NCBI GenBank assembly: GCA_017522795.1 | Contig: JAFWXZ010000027.1 | Span: 1 to 38,338 of the forward strand | DNA length: 38,338 bases | From: Clostridia bacterium | Lineage (GTDB): Bacteria > Bacillota > Clostridia > Oscillospirales > CAG-272 | Direction of reading: 5' to 3' | Part shown: positions 20,870 to 26,221 of the stretch, in pieces | How positions within the stretch are numbered: position 1 is the stretch's first letter | How the letters are laid out: each line of letters opens with the position of its first letter | The notes under the pieces: model-generated | Told to the model about the DNA's origin: nothing | Database searches by the model: none | What the model saw: the letters and a program-made list of their open reading frames with translations, nothing else | Translations under genes and position numbers: made by a program

Positions 20870-20897
20870 TTGACAAAGTCGAATTTTGGAGTATAAT
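20870..20897 (+). promoter_or_regulatory. Promoter of the TetR-controlled reductase operon
   Basis: TTGACA (20870-20875), a 16-base spacer and TATAAT (20892-20897) form a near-consensus promoter. It is followed at once by the inverted-repeat operator and then the first gene at 20937. Such a strong promoter with an overlapping operator fits a repressed, inducible operon. Confidence 0.88.
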
Positions 20898-20900
20898 ATA

Positions 20901-20918
20901 AAATGAACAGGTTCATTT
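20901..20918 (+). promoter_or_regulatory. Perfect palindromic operator, probable TetR binding site
   Basis: AAATGAACAGGTTCATTT is a perfect 8-base inverted repeat with a two-base centre. It starts 3 bases after the -10 box and covers the expected transcription start. TetR/AcrR repressors typically bind such sites, and a TetR gene is second in this operon, so autoregulation is the simple reading. Confidence 0.8.
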
Positions 20919-20936
20919 AAACCACGGGAGAGAGCT

Positions 20937-21707
20937 ATGGATACCGTTTTTGAGAAAATAAAGGAAATATTTGCCGACAGAAAAAAGCGCGGGATCATAA
21001 TATCTTCTGCATCGGCTGCCCTGCTGATAGCGATAGTCCTCGGCTGCGCGATATATCTTAACGACTACTATCGCGCCGACTACGAAGCGGTAGCAGAGGC
21101 GGTTGCCGAAGCGACAGACATTAAAATATATGAACCCCAGGAAAAAATCACCGTGTTCAGTCCCGCATATGAAAGCGAGATCGGCTTTATCTTCTATCCG
21201 GGCGGCAAGGTTGAGGCAAAAGCCTACGAGCCCCTTATGGCAGCCCTGGCAAGCCGAGGCATCGTTGCGGTGCTGTGCGAGATGCCCTTTAATCTGGCAG
21301 TGCTTGACGTGGGCGCGGCAGAGGGAATACCCGAGATGCTGCCCGAGGTTAAGAACTGGTATATCGGCGGTCACTCTCTCGGCGGCTCTATGGCGGCAAG
21401 CTATCTTGCGGACAATACCGATAAGCTCGACGGCATTGTGCTGCTCGGCTCATATTCTACCGCCGACCTGCGCGGCAGCCGTGTTCTCTCCGTCTATGGC
21501 AGCGAGGACGGGGTTATGAACCGCGAAAAATACGGGCAATACCGTCCCAATCTGCCCGAGGACTTTACCGAGGTGATAATCGAAGGCGGAAACCACGCCT
21601 GCTTCGGTATGTACGGTGAGCAGGAGGGTGACGGCAGGGCAACTATAACAGCCGAGGAGCAGATAGACCTCACCGCCGAATACATCGCCGAATTTATTAT
21701 GCAATAA
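20937..21707 (+). CDS. Membrane-anchored alpha/beta hydrolase
   Basis: The 256-residue protein has a transmembrane anchor at residues about 20-42 and an extracytoplasmic alpha/beta-hydrolase fold of the small dienelactone-hydrolase type (Abhydrolase_5). The nucleophile elbow is GHSLGG with Ser147. A strand with 'YGSEDGVM' supplies the probable acid, and 'IEGGNHACFG' near residue 220 the catalytic His. The oxyanion segment is likely IFYPGGKVE. It probably cleaves an ester or similar bond; chlorophyllases share this fold but no specific match is claimed. It is the first gene of a seven-gene operon, with GGGAG seven bases before the ATG, and 21 bases ahead of the TetR gene. Confidence 0.85.
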   Translation: MDTVFEKIKEIFADRKKRGIIISSASAALLIAIVLGCAIYLNDYYRADYEAVAEAVAEATDIKIYEPQEKITVFSPAYESEIGFIFYPGGKVEAKAYEPLMAALASRGIVAVLCEMPFNLAVLDVGAAEGIPEMLPEVKNWYIGGHSLGGSMAASYLADNTDKLDGIVLLGSYSTADLRGSRVLSVYGSEDGVMNREKYGQYRPNLPEDFTEVIIEGGNHACFGMYGEQEGDGRATITAEEQIDLTAEYIAEFIMQ

Positions 21708-21728
21708 AATAAAAAGGATAGGTAATCT

Positions 21729-22172
21729 ATGCCTAAGATAATCGAAAACCTGCGCGAGCAGCTGCTTTCCGAGACAAAGCGGCAGATTGACGAGCGCGGA
21801 TACGGAAGCACCACCGTGCGATCGGTGGCAAACGGATGCGGCGTTGCAGTCGGCACCGTGTACAATTACTTCAAATCAAAGGATATGCTTATCGCCTCAT
21901 TCATTCTGAAGGACTGGATGGACTGTCTTAATGAGATCTCCAAGCATCAGAAGTCGGACAGGCGGGAGTATCTTGAGTTTATACATCTTTCACTTCGGGA
22001 TTTTGCCGACAAGCATATATCCCTCTTCTCCGACAAGGATGCGGCACGGGTGTTTCAGCTCTCCTTTTCGGTAAGGCACAAGCAGCTCCGCGCCCAGCTT
22101 GCCGAGCAGATAGAGCCTATTGCCAATGACGGCTTCCTCGCCGAATACGTTGCCGAGGCTATGCTCTGCTGA
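21729..22172 (+). CDS. TetR/AcrR-family regulator, ended early by an in-frame TGA
   Basis: The N-terminal DNA-binding domain is clear: residues about 5-55, with the helix-turn-helix TTVRSVANGCGVAVGTVYNYFKSKDML. The ligand-binding half follows up to residue 147. The frame then meets TGA at 22170-22172, but the same frame continues for 19 more sense codons to TAA at 22230-22232, reading TMAGRSFDEIYPLLPEKIK. That tail fits the last helix of TetR proteins, in which Trp (TGG) usually stands where TGA is now. So this looks like a one-base nonsense change, or a sequencing error, in a protein meant to be 167 residues. The DNA-binding part is intact. It probably represses this operon through the palindrome at 20901-20918. 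Confidence 0.85.
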   Translation: MPKIIENLREQLLSETKRQIDERGYGSTTVRSVANGCGVAVGTVYNYFKSKDMLIASFILKDWMDCLNEISKHQKSDRREYLEFIHLSLRDFADKHISLFSDKDAARVFQLSFSVRHKQLRAQLAEQIEPIANDGFLAEYVAEAMLC

Positions 22173-22261
22173 ACTATGGCGGGCAGGTCCTTTGACGAAA
22201 TATATCCCCTTTTACCCGAGAAAATCAAATAAAAATTTATATAAACAAAGGAGTAAACAAA

Positions 22262-23188
22262 ATGAGCAGTTTTGAAAATCTTCGTATCGTGGACAACTTC
22301 TATCAGACATCTCTGTATTTCCCTATGCCCACGGTAGTAATCAGCACACTCTGTGAGGACGGCAGCACAAACCTCGGTCCTTACTCGCTGGTTCAGCCCT
22401 ACTACGTAGCAGGAAAGGATTACTATGCAATGCTTCTCTGCTGCCGTAATTCGTCGAACACCGCGCAGAACATTCTCCGCAACGGAAAGTGCGCCATCAA
22501 CTTTATCGACGACAATCCCAAGACCTTCAAGGAGGCTGTAAAGCTCTCCTGGCCCGGTGACAAGCCCCACGAGAAGATGCCTAAGTGCAAATTCAAGCTT
22601 GAAAAGAGCCTTATCCACGAGGAGACAGGCGAGGAGCGTCCCGAGGTTATGAGCGACGCTATCGAGGTTATCGAGTGTACCTGGGTACGCGAGCTTGAGG
22701 GCGCGGATAAGTTCCTCGCGGGCGAGCTTAACGGCTACGAGCCCCCCTACAACGATTTCAACGGTATCACCTCCAAGTTCGGCGCACACTTCATTCTCAA
22801 GGTAGACAAGATCCTTATGAAGAAGAAGTATGCCGACGCTATAATAAACGGCGTAAGAGCAAAGGACTTCCCCGCCCTTCCCGTTGACTACGGCTACCGT
22901 GATTCCAAGAACTTCTGGTTTCACAGAAAGACAAAGATGCGCGCAGAGCTTCTCCAGGTTCGCGAGGCTTCTCTCGAGTCCGTGCGCTATGCGGCAGACA
23001 GAGCCGACGACACGGTTAAGTTCACCGACGACGCGCTCAAGACCATTCTCGGCGTTCCGAGAGTATTCCTCTCCGTAGTTCTCAAGGGCTGCGTTCAGTG
23101 GGCGAAGGAGAACAACGTCACCCTCATCACCGAGGAGCATATGAAGATAATTAACGACAAGCGCGCCAAGGAAAAGGCTAAAAAGTAA
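22262..23188 (+). CDS. Flavin-reductase-like protein with C-terminal PCP_red-like domain
   Basis: A strong AAAGGAG site precedes the ATG. Residues about 10-195 match the FMN-binding split-barrel fold of flavin reductase-like proteins (FPMPTVVISTLCEDGSTNLG, then NTAQNILRNGKCAINF). After a linker, residues about 245-300 (KFTDDALKTILGVP, FLSVVLKGCVQWAKEN, ITEEHMK) follow the pattern of the small PCP_red domain. That domain is named for its place at the end of the B subunit of light-independent protochlorophyllide reductase and occurs in other tetrapyrrole-related proteins. The fusion suggests an FMN-dependent reductase of a planar or hydrophobic substrate. The PCP_red match is by eye: the Thr...Ala...VP...WAKE...IT spacing fits. 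The gene is 15 bases upstream of the dehydrogenase gene. Confidence 0.78.
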   Translation: MSSFENLRIVDNFYQTSLYFPMPTVVISTLCEDGSTNLGPYSLVQPYYVAGKDYYAMLLCCRNSSNTAQNILRNGKCAINFIDDNPKTFKEAVKLSWPGDKPHEKMPKCKFKLEKSLIHEETGEERPEVMSDAIEVIECTWVRELEGADKFLAGELNGYEPPYNDFNGITSKFGAHFILKVDKILMKKKYADAIINGVRAKDFPALPVDYGYRDSKNFWFHRKTKMRAELLQVREASLESVRYAADRADDTVKFTDDALKTILGVPRVFLSVVLKGCVQWAKENNVTLITEEHMKIINDKRAKEKAKK

Positions 23189-23203
23189 AGGAGAGTTTAC
23201 AAA

Positions 23204-24064
23204 ATGAAGATTGTATTAGCAGGTGCGTTCGGAAATCTGGGCGCAGAAATATTAAAGTGCCTGTGCGCTGACGGTCATGAGGTCGTAGCGGCAGACCTTA
23301 GAGAAAGAGAGATCGAGGGCTGCGGTGGTAAGTACACCTTCAAGTCCATCGACGCCACCAATCCCGAGAGCCTTAAGGGCCTCTGCGACGGCGCGGATAT
23401 GGTTATCTCCACCGTTGGCCTTACCGGCGCATCCACAAAGGTGACCTCTTATGACATCGATCTTAACGGCAACCTTAACCTTCTTAACGAGGCAAAGGCT
23501 GCAGGCGTTAAAAAGTTCAACTACATCTCGGTTATCTCCTGCGACGAGCCCGGCGCTGAGAAGGTGCCTATGCTCCACGCAAAGTATCTCTTCGAGGAGG
23601 AGCTTAAAAAGAGCGGTCTTGAGTACATCATTCACCGCCCCACAGGCTACTTCTACGACATCGCAAAGGTATTCAAGCCCTACGTTGATAACGGCGAGAT
23701 GCAGCTTCTCAAGGGCTTTGGCGGCGTAAAGGCAAACGTTGTTGACTGCCCCGATTTCGCTCGCTTTATCGCAGACACTCTCGATAAGGTAAACGTCACC
23801 TACAGCGTAGGCGGCAAGGAGACCTACACCTACGAGGAGATGGCTGCTATGTGCTTTGAGGCGGCAAAGAAGCCCCTCAAGATCAAGTGGGCTCCCATAT
23901 GGCTCTTCGGTATTCTTGCAAATCTGCCCAAGATCAAGAAGGCAGGCAAGCACGACATCATTCTCTTCTCGAAGTGGACTCTCTCCCACGATCTCGTAGG
24001 TGATACCTGCGTTGGCGAGGGCAGCTTCAAAAAGTATCTGAACGACTACTTCGGAGGTAATTAA
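23204..24064 (+). CDS. NmrA-like NAD(P)-binding atypical short-chain dehydrogenase
   Basis: The 286-residue protein begins with a Rossmann motif GAFGNLG (Gly7, Gly10, Gly13) and an Asp after strand 2 (VVAADLRE), suggesting NAD preference. It then follows the NmrA-like atypical SDR pattern: DGADMVISTVG, NLNLLNEAKAAGVKKFNYIS, and the late HRPTGYF segment. It lacks the usual YxxxK of classical SDRs, although MLHAKYLFEEELKKSG occupies the same place. Divinyl-protochlorophyllide reductases belong to this broad family, but so do many unrelated enzymes, so substrate cannot be read off. Its stop is two bases before the next start, so it is translationally linked to the DUF1295 gene. Confidence 0.85.
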   Translation: MKIVLAGAFGNLGAEILKCLCADGHEVVAADLREREIEGCGGKYTFKSIDATNPESLKGLCDGADMVISTVGLTGASTKVTSYDIDLNGNLNLLNEAKAAGVKKFNYISVISCDEPGAEKVPMLHAKYLFEEELKKSGLEYIIHRPTGYFYDIAKVFKPYVDNGEMQLLKGFGGVKANVVDCPDFARFIADTLDKVNVTYSVGGKETYTYEEMAAMCFEAAKKPLKIKWAPIWLFGILANLPKIKKAGKHDIILFSKWTLSHDLVGDTCVGEGSFKKYLNDYFGGN

Positions 24065-24066
24065 TC

Positions 24067-24885
24067 ATGCCCTGGTCATTACTTGGAATTCTTTACATAG
24101 TTTGCGCTGTTCTCTGCGCGGTTGGCTTCTATAAGTTCGTATATTTCCTCTCTATCGGCTACGGCTTTGCAGTAGCGGGCGGCGGTATTGCCATTCTCGT
24201 TATGGCGCTTATCACTCCCACCGATGCTCCCCTCTGGATCCTTCTTATCCAGGCGGCGCTCTTCCTTGCCTACGGTATCCGTCTCAGCGGCTTCCTTCTC
24301 GTTCGAGAGCTGAAGAACATCACCTTCAAGAAGACCGACGTTGCCAAGGACACCCTTGCAAAGAACGGTGAGAAGAAGATGCCCGTTTTCGTTCTCGCTA
24401 CCATCTGGATCGTGGTTGCGGCTCTCTACGTGACACAGGTATCTCCTATGCTCTTCCGTTATGACAACGGCTGCACAGATATTCTTCTTCCCATCATCGG
24501 CTTCGTGGTTTCTATCGGCGGTCTTGTTCTTGAGTCTATCGCTGACAACCAGAAGTCCCAGCAGAAGAAGGAGCGCCCCGATATGGTTGCTACCAAGGGT
24601 CTGTACAAAATGTGCCGTTGCCCCAACTATCTCGGTGAGATCATCTTCTGGACAGGTGTGTTCATCAGCGGTATCACTGCATATCAGGGTGTCGGTCAGT
24701 GGATCATGGCAATCTTTGCGTATATCGCGATCGTATTCATTATGTTCAATGGCGCGCAGCGCCTTGAAAAGCGTCAGATGGCGCGCTACGGCAAGGACGA
24801 GGAGTACAACACTTACGCAAACAAGACTCCTATCATTATCCCCCTTCTTCCCATCTATCACCTTAATAAAATCGACAAAAAGTAA
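24067..24885 (+). CDS. DUF1295 membrane protein (steroid 5-alpha-reductase-like)
   Basis: The 272-residue protein has six or seven transmembrane segments. The family signature is near the C-terminus: GLYKMCRCPNYLGEI (compare G-L-x-x-x-x-R-H-P-N-Y-x-G-E in DUF1295 proteins), then a Trp/Gly-rich helix and 'RLEKRQMARYG' before the end. Cys replaces the His usually found before Pro-Asn-Tyr. DUF1295 proteins are related to steroid 5-alpha-reductases and isoprenylcysteine methyltransferases and likely act on lipophilic substrates at the membrane. Together with the neighbouring reductase genes it suggests reduction of a hydrophobic compound. The start is set by the two-base spacing from the previous stop. 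Confidence 0.85.
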   Translation: MPWSLLGILYIVCAVLCAVGFYKFVYFLSIGYGFAVAGGGIAILVMALITPTDAPLWILLIQAALFLAYGIRLSGFLLVRELKNITFKKTDVAKDTLAKNGEKKMPVFVLATIWIVVAALYVTQVSPMLFRYDNGCTDILLPIIGFVVSIGGLVLESIADNQKSQQKKERPDMVATKGLYKMCRCPNYLGEIIFWTGVFISGITAYQGVGQWIMAIFAYIAIVFIMFNGAQRLEKRQMARYGKDEEYNTYANKTPIIIPLLPIYHLNKIDKK

Positions 24886-24903
24886 AGCGAGGTTTACATA
24901 ATT

Positions 24904-25527
24904 ATGGATTTCACCATTGGAATGGCTCTCGTTGATTATATTCCCGTAATTTGCTTTGCTATCGGCGCGGTAATTCTCATGCGCGATCTTTACAACAAAA
25001 TGAGCAAGGGCGCCTTTGCCCTTTTCGCCGCGGGTACTATTATGATCACCCTTGCAGGCGCGCTTAAGGCTACCTGGAAGCTGCTCTATGCGGCTGGAAT
25101 CTGCAACTTTGAGGCTTTGAACAATATGTTCTTCCCCACCCAGTCCATTGGCTTCCTGCTTGCAGGCGTAGGCATTCTTGCTATGCTCGTTTACAACCAG
25201 GAGGAAACTAAGCTCCGTTCCGTTCCTCCCGTATTCTCGGGCACCTTCGTATTCGTTGGACTTATGGTTGCGGGACTTGGCGTTATGGACACAGTGCTTT
25301 GCATCGTATCTGCAAAGCTGAAGAAGCCTTGGCTTATCGCTTTGTTCGTTCTCTCCTTCGTTTGCTCGCTCTGTATGGGATATCTTTCCTCAAAGGACTT
25401 TACCGAGGCGGCTATGAACTGGATCGCCGAGGGTGTAAACGTGGTTGGACAGGGAAGCTTCCTCGCGGGCGCATATCTGCTTCACAAAAACGGCCTTGCA
25501 GAGCTTGAATTAAAGGGAGAAAAGTGA
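24904..25527 (+). CDS. Six-helix membrane protein of unknown family
   Basis: The 207-residue product has six predicted membrane segments (about residues 10-27, 36-58, 72-93, 104-124, 140-158 and 174-192) and few charged residues. Trp53 and several small Gly/Ala stretches are the only marked features. I do not recognise a family. The position between the DUF1295 protein and the bilin-reductase-like gene, with a one-base TGATG overlap with the latter, shows tight coupling. It could pass electrons, transport the substrate or hold the other enzymes at the membrane; none of these can be shown from sequence. Confidence 0.75.
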   Translation: MDFTIGMALVDYIPVICFAIGAVILMRDLYNKMSKGAFALFAAGTIMITLAGALKATWKLLYAAGICNFEALNNMFFPTQSIGFLLAGVGILAMLVYNQEETKLRSVPPVFSGTFVFVGLMVAGLGVMDTVLCIVSAKLKKPWLIALFVLSFVCSLCMGYLSSKDFTEAAMNWIAEGVNVVGQGSFLAGAYLLHKNGLAELELKGEK

Positions 25528-26177
25528 TGGTAAATAGTCTTGTCACTCTGATCGGTCAGAAGCATCCTCTCACCCAGCTTGATTGCGGCGAGTTTGCAAA
25601 AATGAAGGTGAACGGAATGAATTTCACTATCCGCGCATACAAGGCGGCAGGCCTCGGTCACGTGTCTGTTATGCGGGCGAGCGGTTTCCTCGGACTTATG
25701 AAAATGGACACTCTGATCATCAATCCCACCGAGCTTGACCTGCCCCTCTACTCCTACGATCACATCTCGGCTATGGGCAACGAAACGCTGATAGTTGAGC
25801 TGTACGATACCCTGCTCGGTGAGTACGACGAGAGCAGAATGCTGGAGGTAAAGGCGAGGAAAAAATACTCTGCCCTGCCCGAGCGCGACCCGGGTGAGCA
25901 TTGGTATGACTCCATAAAGCTTGCGTCATCTATCTCAAAAAAGGGCAAGAAAAAGCATCTTCCCCTGATGCAGAGCCTGACGGATCAGCACTTTGCAGCC
26001 TACCTTGAGTCAAGCCACGCCCCCGTCACCGACCCTGCGGCAAAGCAGAAAAAGGCGAGCGTGTACGTTGACGGCCTACTTACCAAGGGCGGCCCGTCCA
26101 CCGACGTTTTCAAGAAAAGCATCGGCGACGTCCTCACCCGCCAACTCTTCGAGCAGGTGCTGTTCGGAACGAAATAA
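25527..26177 (+). CDS. Ferredoxin-dependent bilin reductase-like protein (HY2/PcyA superfamily)
   Basis: I take ATG 25527, which overlaps the previous TGA and has GGGAG seven bases ahead; a GTG one codon earlier is possible. The protein is 216 residues, slightly shorter than PcyA (about 245). The fit to the bilin reductase superfamily is by pattern. A central LDLPLYSYDHISAMG followed by LIVELYDT matches the 'GLPLFGCDIVAGPGG...ADL' core of PcyA. The C-terminal helix DVFKKSIGDVLTRQLFEQVLF matches the 'V-x-x-K-x-x-G-x(6)-x-Q-V-L-F' end of PcyA-type enzymes. The upstream strand MDTLIINP precedes the core as in the family. FDBRs and red chlorophyll catabolite reductase reduce linear tetrapyrroles with ferredoxin. 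A bilin or related substrate is therefore inferred for this last operon gene. Confidence 0.7.
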   Translation: MVNSLVTLIGQKHPLTQLDCGEFAKMKVNGMNFTIRAYKAAGLGHVSVMRASGFLGLMKMDTLIINPTELDLPLYSYDHISAMGNETLIVELYDTLLGEYDESRMLEVKARKKYSALPERDPGEHWYDSIKLASSISKKGKKKHLPLMQSLTDQHFAAYLESSHAPVTDPAAKQKKASVYVDGLLTKGGPSTDVFKKSIGDVLTRQLFEQVLFGTK

Positions 26178-26189
26178 TTTAAAAATATC

Positions 26190-26221
26190 AAAGGACTTCC
26201 CGCACGGGAGGTCCTTTTTTG
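26190..26221 (+). terminator. Terminator of the reductase operon
   Basis: AAAGGACTTCCCG-CA-CGGGAGGTCCTTT followed by TTTT lies 13 bases beyond the stop of the last gene. It has almost the same arms as the terminator at 31421-31450. Confidence 0.95.

Follow-up and report, generated by a model that had tools for sequence, protein, structure and literature searches.

A conserved operon of gut Clostridia encoding a remote HY2-superfamily protein, a candidate for ligand-induced tetrapyrrole reduction

Introduction

To our knowledge, few genes are known by which gut microbes convert bile pigments or chlorophyll from the diet, and the HY2-superfamily enzymes with known activity all act on tetrapyrroles. 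Phylloerythrin, which gut microbes make from chlorophyll, photosensitises livestock with liver disease. Here, we describe an operon of seven genes (P0001-P0007, numbered 1 to 7) on contig JAFWXZ010000027.1 of a gut Clostridia genome; the window, i.e., the whole stretch of DNA that was analysed, is this contig of 38,338 nt. The last gene product, P0007, is putatively related to the bilin reductases of family PF05996 (PcyA, PebA/PebB/PebS, PcyX and HY2). Like these enzymes, with which it shares remote homology over most of the chain, P0007 has a length of about 216 residues and an invariant aspartate aligned with Asp105 of PcyA. Unlike them, the P0007 family has no equivalents of PcyA His88 and Glu76, and its members, as far as they were scored, stay under the cut-off set by Pfam; the protein comes from gut Clostridia, has other gene neighbours, and occurs in genomes in none of eight of which heme oxygenase was found.

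A further comparison is with the pre-PcyA proteins, described as HY2 enzymes of heterotrophic bacteria outside the phototrophs; among them, pre-2 and pre-3 keep Asp105 without His88, and pre-PcyA is without Glu76 (PMC10151467). P0007 resembles pre-2 and pre-3 in having an Asp105 equivalent without His88, and pre-PcyA in the absence of Glu76, as described there (PMC10151467). The pre-PcyA clusters described there contain genes for heme oxygenase, V4R, Fe-S and globin proteins, or for a B12-binding protein and a globin, unlike the P0007 operon with its TetR, flavin-reductase-like, short-chain dehydrogenase (SDR), DUF1295 and membrane proteins (PMC10151467). The terms Firmicutes, Bacillota and Clostridi are not named in the main text of that paper. 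RCCR, a distant HY2-fold relative, has a chlorophyll catabolite as its substrate and works downstream of an oxygen-dependent enzyme (PMC10151467). The RCCR family of Pfam gave no match for P0007, nor does it appear in the list of families obtained for the P0007 alignment A2 of 59 members described below.

Bilirubin reductases of gut bacteria have been described, namely BilR (PMC10769871) and BilV, a member of the Old Yellow Enzyme family (PMC13252198). The operon resembles BilR and BilV in its occurrence in gut bacteria and, if the inference made here holds, in tetrapyrrole reduction. Unlike BilV, none of its seven products gave a Pfam match (E <= 1) to an Old Yellow Enzyme family. The original prediction, made from the window alone, was that none of the products is BilR. 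BilR is reportedly of the Old Yellow Enzyme type as well. Our search of the literature on gut bilin and chlorophyll conversion, and on DUF1295 together with flavin reductase, which covered few subscription papers, found no such operon among the matches listed, and no paper linking the HY2 family with gut bacteria.

Results

P0007 (25527-26177, plus strand) gave no Pfam match at E <= 1 and none in single-sequence scans of NCBIfam or PHROGs; therefore, alignments of its relatives were used. A profile from alignment A1 of the P0007 family found 165 relatives on genome contigs, the best 80 of which were retained as loci, some of them being the same contigs as in a family-wide P0007 search. Alignment A2 consists of P0007 plus its relatives from 58 of the 80 loci; truncated and some similar copies were left out, and L124 was dropped because of a stop. 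At E <= 10, 31 of the 59 A2 members match PF05996, with the best E of 8e-7. When ten relatives were scored singly, four matched PF05996 at 13.5-19.7 bits and six did not; neither P0007 nor any relative scored singly reaches the curated cut-off of 31 bits. The matches of L046, L064, L129 and L141 cover the profile from positions 29-34 to 222-227 of 228. A whole-genome search of the window's genome with PF05996 gave no match at E up to 10. The Methanosarcina acetivorans control genome contains a sub-threshold PF05996 match at E <= 10.

A second model (the phage HY2 model) was built from 13 PcyA-, PebS- and PcyX-like proteins of phages and viral contigs and was searched against 4570 open frames taken from the 80 loci together with the window. 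All of the 21 top-ranking matches belong to the P0007 family (best E 1.9e-5), although these copies are mutually related, so that the 21 matches are not independent. Of the 60 listed matches, 42 are P0007-family members, the set containing 82 P0007-family open reading frames (ORFs). Ten column-shuffled versions of the model placed 0-3 P0007-family members among the top 21, and the reversed version placed none; models restricted to PcyA/PcyX or to PebS placed 15 of 21 each, with the best E of 0.0033 and 0.093, respectively. In a profile-profile comparison (hhalign), the P0007 profile aligned collinearly with the phage HY2 profile (4-213 on 20-233, E 0.008), whereas for two controls the E values were 0.34 (67 columns) and 0.2 (19 columns). 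Sequence searches of the PDB with P0007, P0003 and alignments A2, A3 and A9 found no firm relative. The similarity of P0007 to HY2 proteins, as judged from these profiles, exceeds chance, and we assign P0007 to the HY2 superfamily as a putative remote member, a claim that stops short of "bilin reductase". The original prediction had seen the HY2/PcyA pattern in the last gene and proposed a profile search of its product against PF05996; that search gives no match for P0007 itself, and the assignment stands at the level of the family (PF05996 in 31 of 59 members, and the phage model) and not for the single sequence.

Asp78 of P0007 is invariant (59/59 in A2 and 16/16 in A1) and aligns in hhalign with a residue of the phage proteins that we take, not via a Synechocystis sequence, to be the counterpart of Asp105 of PcyA. 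The position of His88 corresponds to residue 61 of P0007, which is Asp in 59/59 members of A2 and Asp in 12 and Glu in four of the 16 members of A1; the position of Glu76 corresponds in the hhalign alignment to Ser47, which is invariant in A2. Thus, the pair His88 and Glu76 of PcyA proper is not found in the P0007 family. The AlphaFold2 model of P0007 (predicted local distance difference test, pLDDT, 96.9; predicted template modelling score, pTM, 0.93) consists of a helix, seven strands and then mostly helices. Such an order of helix, strands and helices would be in keeping with the HY2 fold, an alpha-beta-alpha sandwich.

The seven ORFs (20937-26177) are all on the same strand. They are preceded by a sigma-70-type promoter-like site, TTGACA-16-TATAAT, with 12/12 matches (20870-20897, plus strand), directly 3' of whose -10 box lies a predicted TetR operator, the perfect palindrome AATGAAC-AG-GTTCATT (AATGAACAGGTTCATT; 20902-20917, no strand assigned), and they are followed by an intrinsic terminator-like stem of 12 pairs with a T run (26190-26217, plus strand). 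It should be noted that the signal scan as a whole gave 10 promoter-like and 9 terminator-like sites, compared to shuffle means of 4.6 and 5.8; therefore, only these two best sites are counted. The arrangement of seven genes under one promoter, TetR operator and terminator was thus found as originally predicted.

The gene order, read in the 80 loci by tblastn of the window proteins, is conserved beyond the strain, as had been expected. P0006 is located directly before P0007 in 66/80 loci, and the order 2-3-4-5-6-7 is retained in 44/80, many of the other loci being cut by contig ends; since the loci were chosen by P0007, these counts cannot tell how often the operon lacks P0007. The operon is real and conserved. 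Among the 44 ordered loci, two have P0001 between genes 5 and 6, and L088 has extra ORFs between genes 3 and 4. P0007 occurs without P0006 in front of it in 14 of the 80 loci, and in ten of these it is the sole match. The position of P0001 in relatives is variable (first, last, divergent, internal or absent). For example, a P0001-like hydrolase stretch lies between DUF1295 and P0006 in L135 (7647-8990) and L136 (7709-8993), and in L135 the P0001-like and P0006-like stretches share one open frame of 447 residues. L122 contains the TetR gene, P0003, P0006 and P0007, and no match to the SDR or DUF1295. In the 37 loci with six genes readable, the distances of genes 2, 3, 5, 6 and 7 correlate with r of 0.57-0.79, each value exceeding all 500 permutations, although such correlated divergence could also come from shared genome descent alone. 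The SDR distances track the other genes poorly (r 0.01-0.35), only the SDR-P0007 value being above all permutations.

Within the taxonomic family of the window's genome, a P0007 relative was detected in 17 of the 196 genomes searched, the window's own included, and in none of the four other same-genus genomes shown in the family-wide search; a phylum-wide profile search found P0007 in one of 398 genomes, namely the window's own. The system is rare beyond the family. P0003 relatives occur in 15 of 295 genomes of the order, again including the window's own. P0003 is found without P0007 in L051-L057, L060 and L061; L062 ends inside P0003, and L063 is a weak match. In L051-L057, from other genomes of the order, P0003 stands away from the other operon genes and is 82-87% identical, a conservation far above that of the remaining genes; P0003 may therefore have a broader function or have been transferred. 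In Butyrivibrio sp. AC2005 (L132:3179-9195), a stand-alone P0007 relative is located between genes for MATE-family pumps, one of which carries a stretch like the S component of an energy-coupling factor (ECF) riboflavin transporter.

The second gene encodes the TetR-family regulator P0002 (PF00440 in Pfam; 21729-22172, plus strand). The operator was searched with up to two mismatches in 683,432 bases, i.e., the 45 of the 80 loci with a TetR match, and 41 occurrences were found, compared to 0-7 for each of twenty shuffled palindromes in the same loci. The operator lies before the operon or directly before the TetR gene in 37 of the 45 loci and is absent there in eight; one of these eight, L083, begins inside P0001. 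The exact 14-base operator core has a single site in six of eight whole genomes, always just upstream of this operon, and was not found in the other two, the control pattern giving one match (in G126). Because the core occurs at a single genomic site, the regulator appears to be dedicated to this operon alone. In the window, codon 148 of the TetR gene (21729-22232) is an in-frame stop, beyond which lies an open stretch resembling the C-terminus of relatives; the 45 relatives are 167-185 residues long, and the window copy stops about 20 codons sooner. The TetR of the window strain may be impaired, or the stop may be an assembly error; intact copies exist. A reading of this stop as UGA encoding an amino acid was rejected, since P0006 ends in TGA about where its relatives end. 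P0002 weakly resembles the fatty-acid regulator FadR (41 bits compared to the cut-off of 200).

The remaining products belong mostly to broad families. P0001 (20937-21707, plus strand) is an alpha/beta hydrolase by Pfam (PF12695), and hydropathy shows a hydrophobic N-terminal segment that is probably a membrane anchor. P0003 (22262-23188, plus strand) is flavin-reductase-like (PF01613, also found in 34/34 members of its alignment), with a C-terminal domain weakly resembling PCP_red (PF08369). P0003 itself has no PF08369 match and thus does not reach the cut-off of this family (32.5 bits); one of the 34 alignment members matches at E 0.017. For the isolated C-terminal domains, PF08369 is the best-scoring family, matching three of ten (best E 6e-4), the window's own domain being without a match, and an Xre-like helix-turn-helix family also matches three of the ten (best E 0.021). 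PCP_red is matched at E <= 10 in nine of 14 control genomes, in one of them over its cut-off; because such matches are common, the resemblance of the P0003 C-terminus is a weak sign. Of the two independent links to tetrapyrroles claimed originally, the PCP_red-like C-terminus thus proved the weaker, being traceable in few relatives and not in P0003.

P0004 (23204-24064, plus strand) is an NmrA-like atypical SDR by Pfam (PF13460, PF05368), and its profile matched in the PDB first KtrA (over the Rossmann stretch only), the epimerase 3e8x, SimC7 and NDUFA9-type chains, with triphenylmethane reductase ranking lower. P0005 (24067-24885, plus strand) is a membrane protein of the DUF1295 family that resembles steroid 5-alpha-reductases in Pfam (PF06966, PF02544) and has about six hydrophobic segments by hydropathy; it matches 7c83, a 3-oxo-5-alpha-steroid 4-dehydrogenase, over 30 residues (E 3.1e-4). 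The SDR and DUF1295 proteins had been read as hints to chlorophyll or steroid chemistry; the family similarity is present, but families of this breadth, to judge from these matches, do not discriminate between substrates. P0006 (24904-25527, plus strand) is a membrane protein without an assigned family, having about five hydrophobic segments by hydropathy and no match over the cut-off in Pfam or a second profile library.

Among the record titles of the 80 loci, 39 give a ruminant gut site (caecum, colon or rectum in 36, and ileum, omasum and rumen in one each); the others include horse faeces, "Lapin" (presumably rabbit), the RUG catalogues, which we take to be rumen, and isolates of Butyrivibrio or Pseudobutyrivibrio, six in number. 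The tally mirrors which metagenome-assembled genomes (MAGs) exist and is no survey. None of eight operon-carrying genomes, which are 74-98% complete, gave a match to heme oxygenase (PF01126); therefore, canonical heme breakdown within the cell is an improbable source of a bilin, which suggests the host or the diet as the source of the substrate. Partial versions of the operon (genes 4-7) are present in Pseudobutyrivibrio ruminis CF1b and Pseudobutyrivibrio sp. YE44, presumably rumen isolates. Bile joins the gut below the rumen. Host bilirubin as the sole substrate is weakened by the presence of genes 4-7 in these presumed rumen isolates. We lean toward the diet on the basis of these isolates (L118, L127), many hindgut MAGs fitting both sources; chlorophyll catabolite and bile pigment are not separable from these data.

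Discussion

Our computations detect the operon, its operator, their conservation and the remote HY2 homology of P0007. In the scheme that we infer, including its order of steps, TetR would act at a single operator to repress the operon that encodes it, and a lipophilic gut ligand would release the repressor. P0007 would most likely reduce the ligand, or a product of the ligand, with electrons from ferredoxin; P0003, the NAD(P)H-type SDR P0004 and the reductase-like DUF1295 protein P0005 would perform or feed further reductions, and handling of the substrate at the membrane would fall to P0006 and the hydrolase P0001. By analogy, the substrate is most likely a gut tetrapyrrole, either a bile pigment of the host or a breakdown product of feed chlorophyll; a tetrapyrrole is preferred solely because of the substrates of the known HY2-superfamily enzymes. 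Our best explanation, which we consider about as likely as not, is that anaerobic gut Clostridia have here a dedicated pathway of reduction that is induced by its ligand, with a tetrapyrrole as the likeliest substrate. The more specific proposal, that P0007 represents a new HY2 lineage in heme-oxygenase-free gut Clostridia serving the ligand-induced reduction of chlorophyll catabolites (e.g., towards phylloerythrin-type pigments) or host bile pigments, is tentative and falls short of an even chance. Of the operon originally proposed to reduce bilins or chlorophyll catabolites, the HY2-like gene, TetR control and conserved order were recovered, and the substrate is putative.

Several observations weigh against this proposal. 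P0007 alone matches no PF05996, 28 of the 59 A2 members have no such match, and the four scores of singly tested relatives (13.5-19.7 bits) are all under the 31-bit cut-off. The hhalign probability of the alignment with HY2 proteins is only 4.9%, a sequence search of the PDB with the P0007-family profile yielded no HY2 chain, and His88 and Glu76 of PcyA are not conserved. L050, L058 and L059, found in the order-wide P0003 search, keep genes 2-3-4-5-6 in order without a P0007 match, and in that search only the window's own locus has a neighbouring P0007 match; since operon versions without P0007 exist, P0007 is not obligatory. Stand-alone P0007 relatives adjoin kinases, MATE pumps and other genes, with nothing tetrapyrrole-specific, and the window's own TetR is possibly impaired by its early stop.

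The sub-threshold PF05996 scores, the low hhalign probability, the lack of a PDB match by sequence and the lack of a PF05996 match in the window's genome at E up to 10 might mean that P0007 is no HY2 relative and that the match reflects convergence. We regard this as very improbable, given that the HY2 model places P0007-family members at all 21 top ranks, compared to 0-3 for shuffled and none for reversed versions, that the PcyA/PcyX-only and PebS-only models place 15 of 21 each, and that four relatives (L046, L064, L129 and L141) span most of the PF05996 profile. A stronger competitor, which we nevertheless judge unlikely, is that the reduced substrate is a lipophilic enone from plant or host, such as a steroid, a sterol or a terpenoid, P0007 being a co-opted HY2 fold, a binder or an add-on. 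The steroid 5-alpha-reductase similarity of the DUF1295 protein, the NmrA-type SDR and the hydrophobic N-terminus of the hydrolase would fit such a substrate, and L050, L058 and L059 hold the SDR and DUF1295 genes without a P0007 match. However, these two families are broad, and the genes in question can themselves be missing or exchanged, L122 giving a match to neither and the SDR distances tracking most genes poorly.

Envelope or lipid maintenance, in which membrane-active compounds would be sensed and lipids altered, with P0007 and P0003 serving redox upkeep and no defined catabolic substrate, is consistent with the hydrophobic membrane segments in three products and with the weak likeness of the TetR protein to FadR. 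A single-site operator and an HY2 relative would be unusual for general envelope stress, and the FadR score is far from its cut-off (41 versus 200 bits), making this reading improbable, less so than convergence and more so than the enone.

If the tetrapyrrole reading is true, a family that has so far been linked to oxygen-dependent pathways would gain an HY2-type member working in anaerobes. The compact operon with its defined operator would be usable as a sensor for its own inducer. The operon would also represent a possible unrecognised route by which gut microbes alter bile-pigment-like or chlorophyll-breakdown molecules in plant-eating animals.

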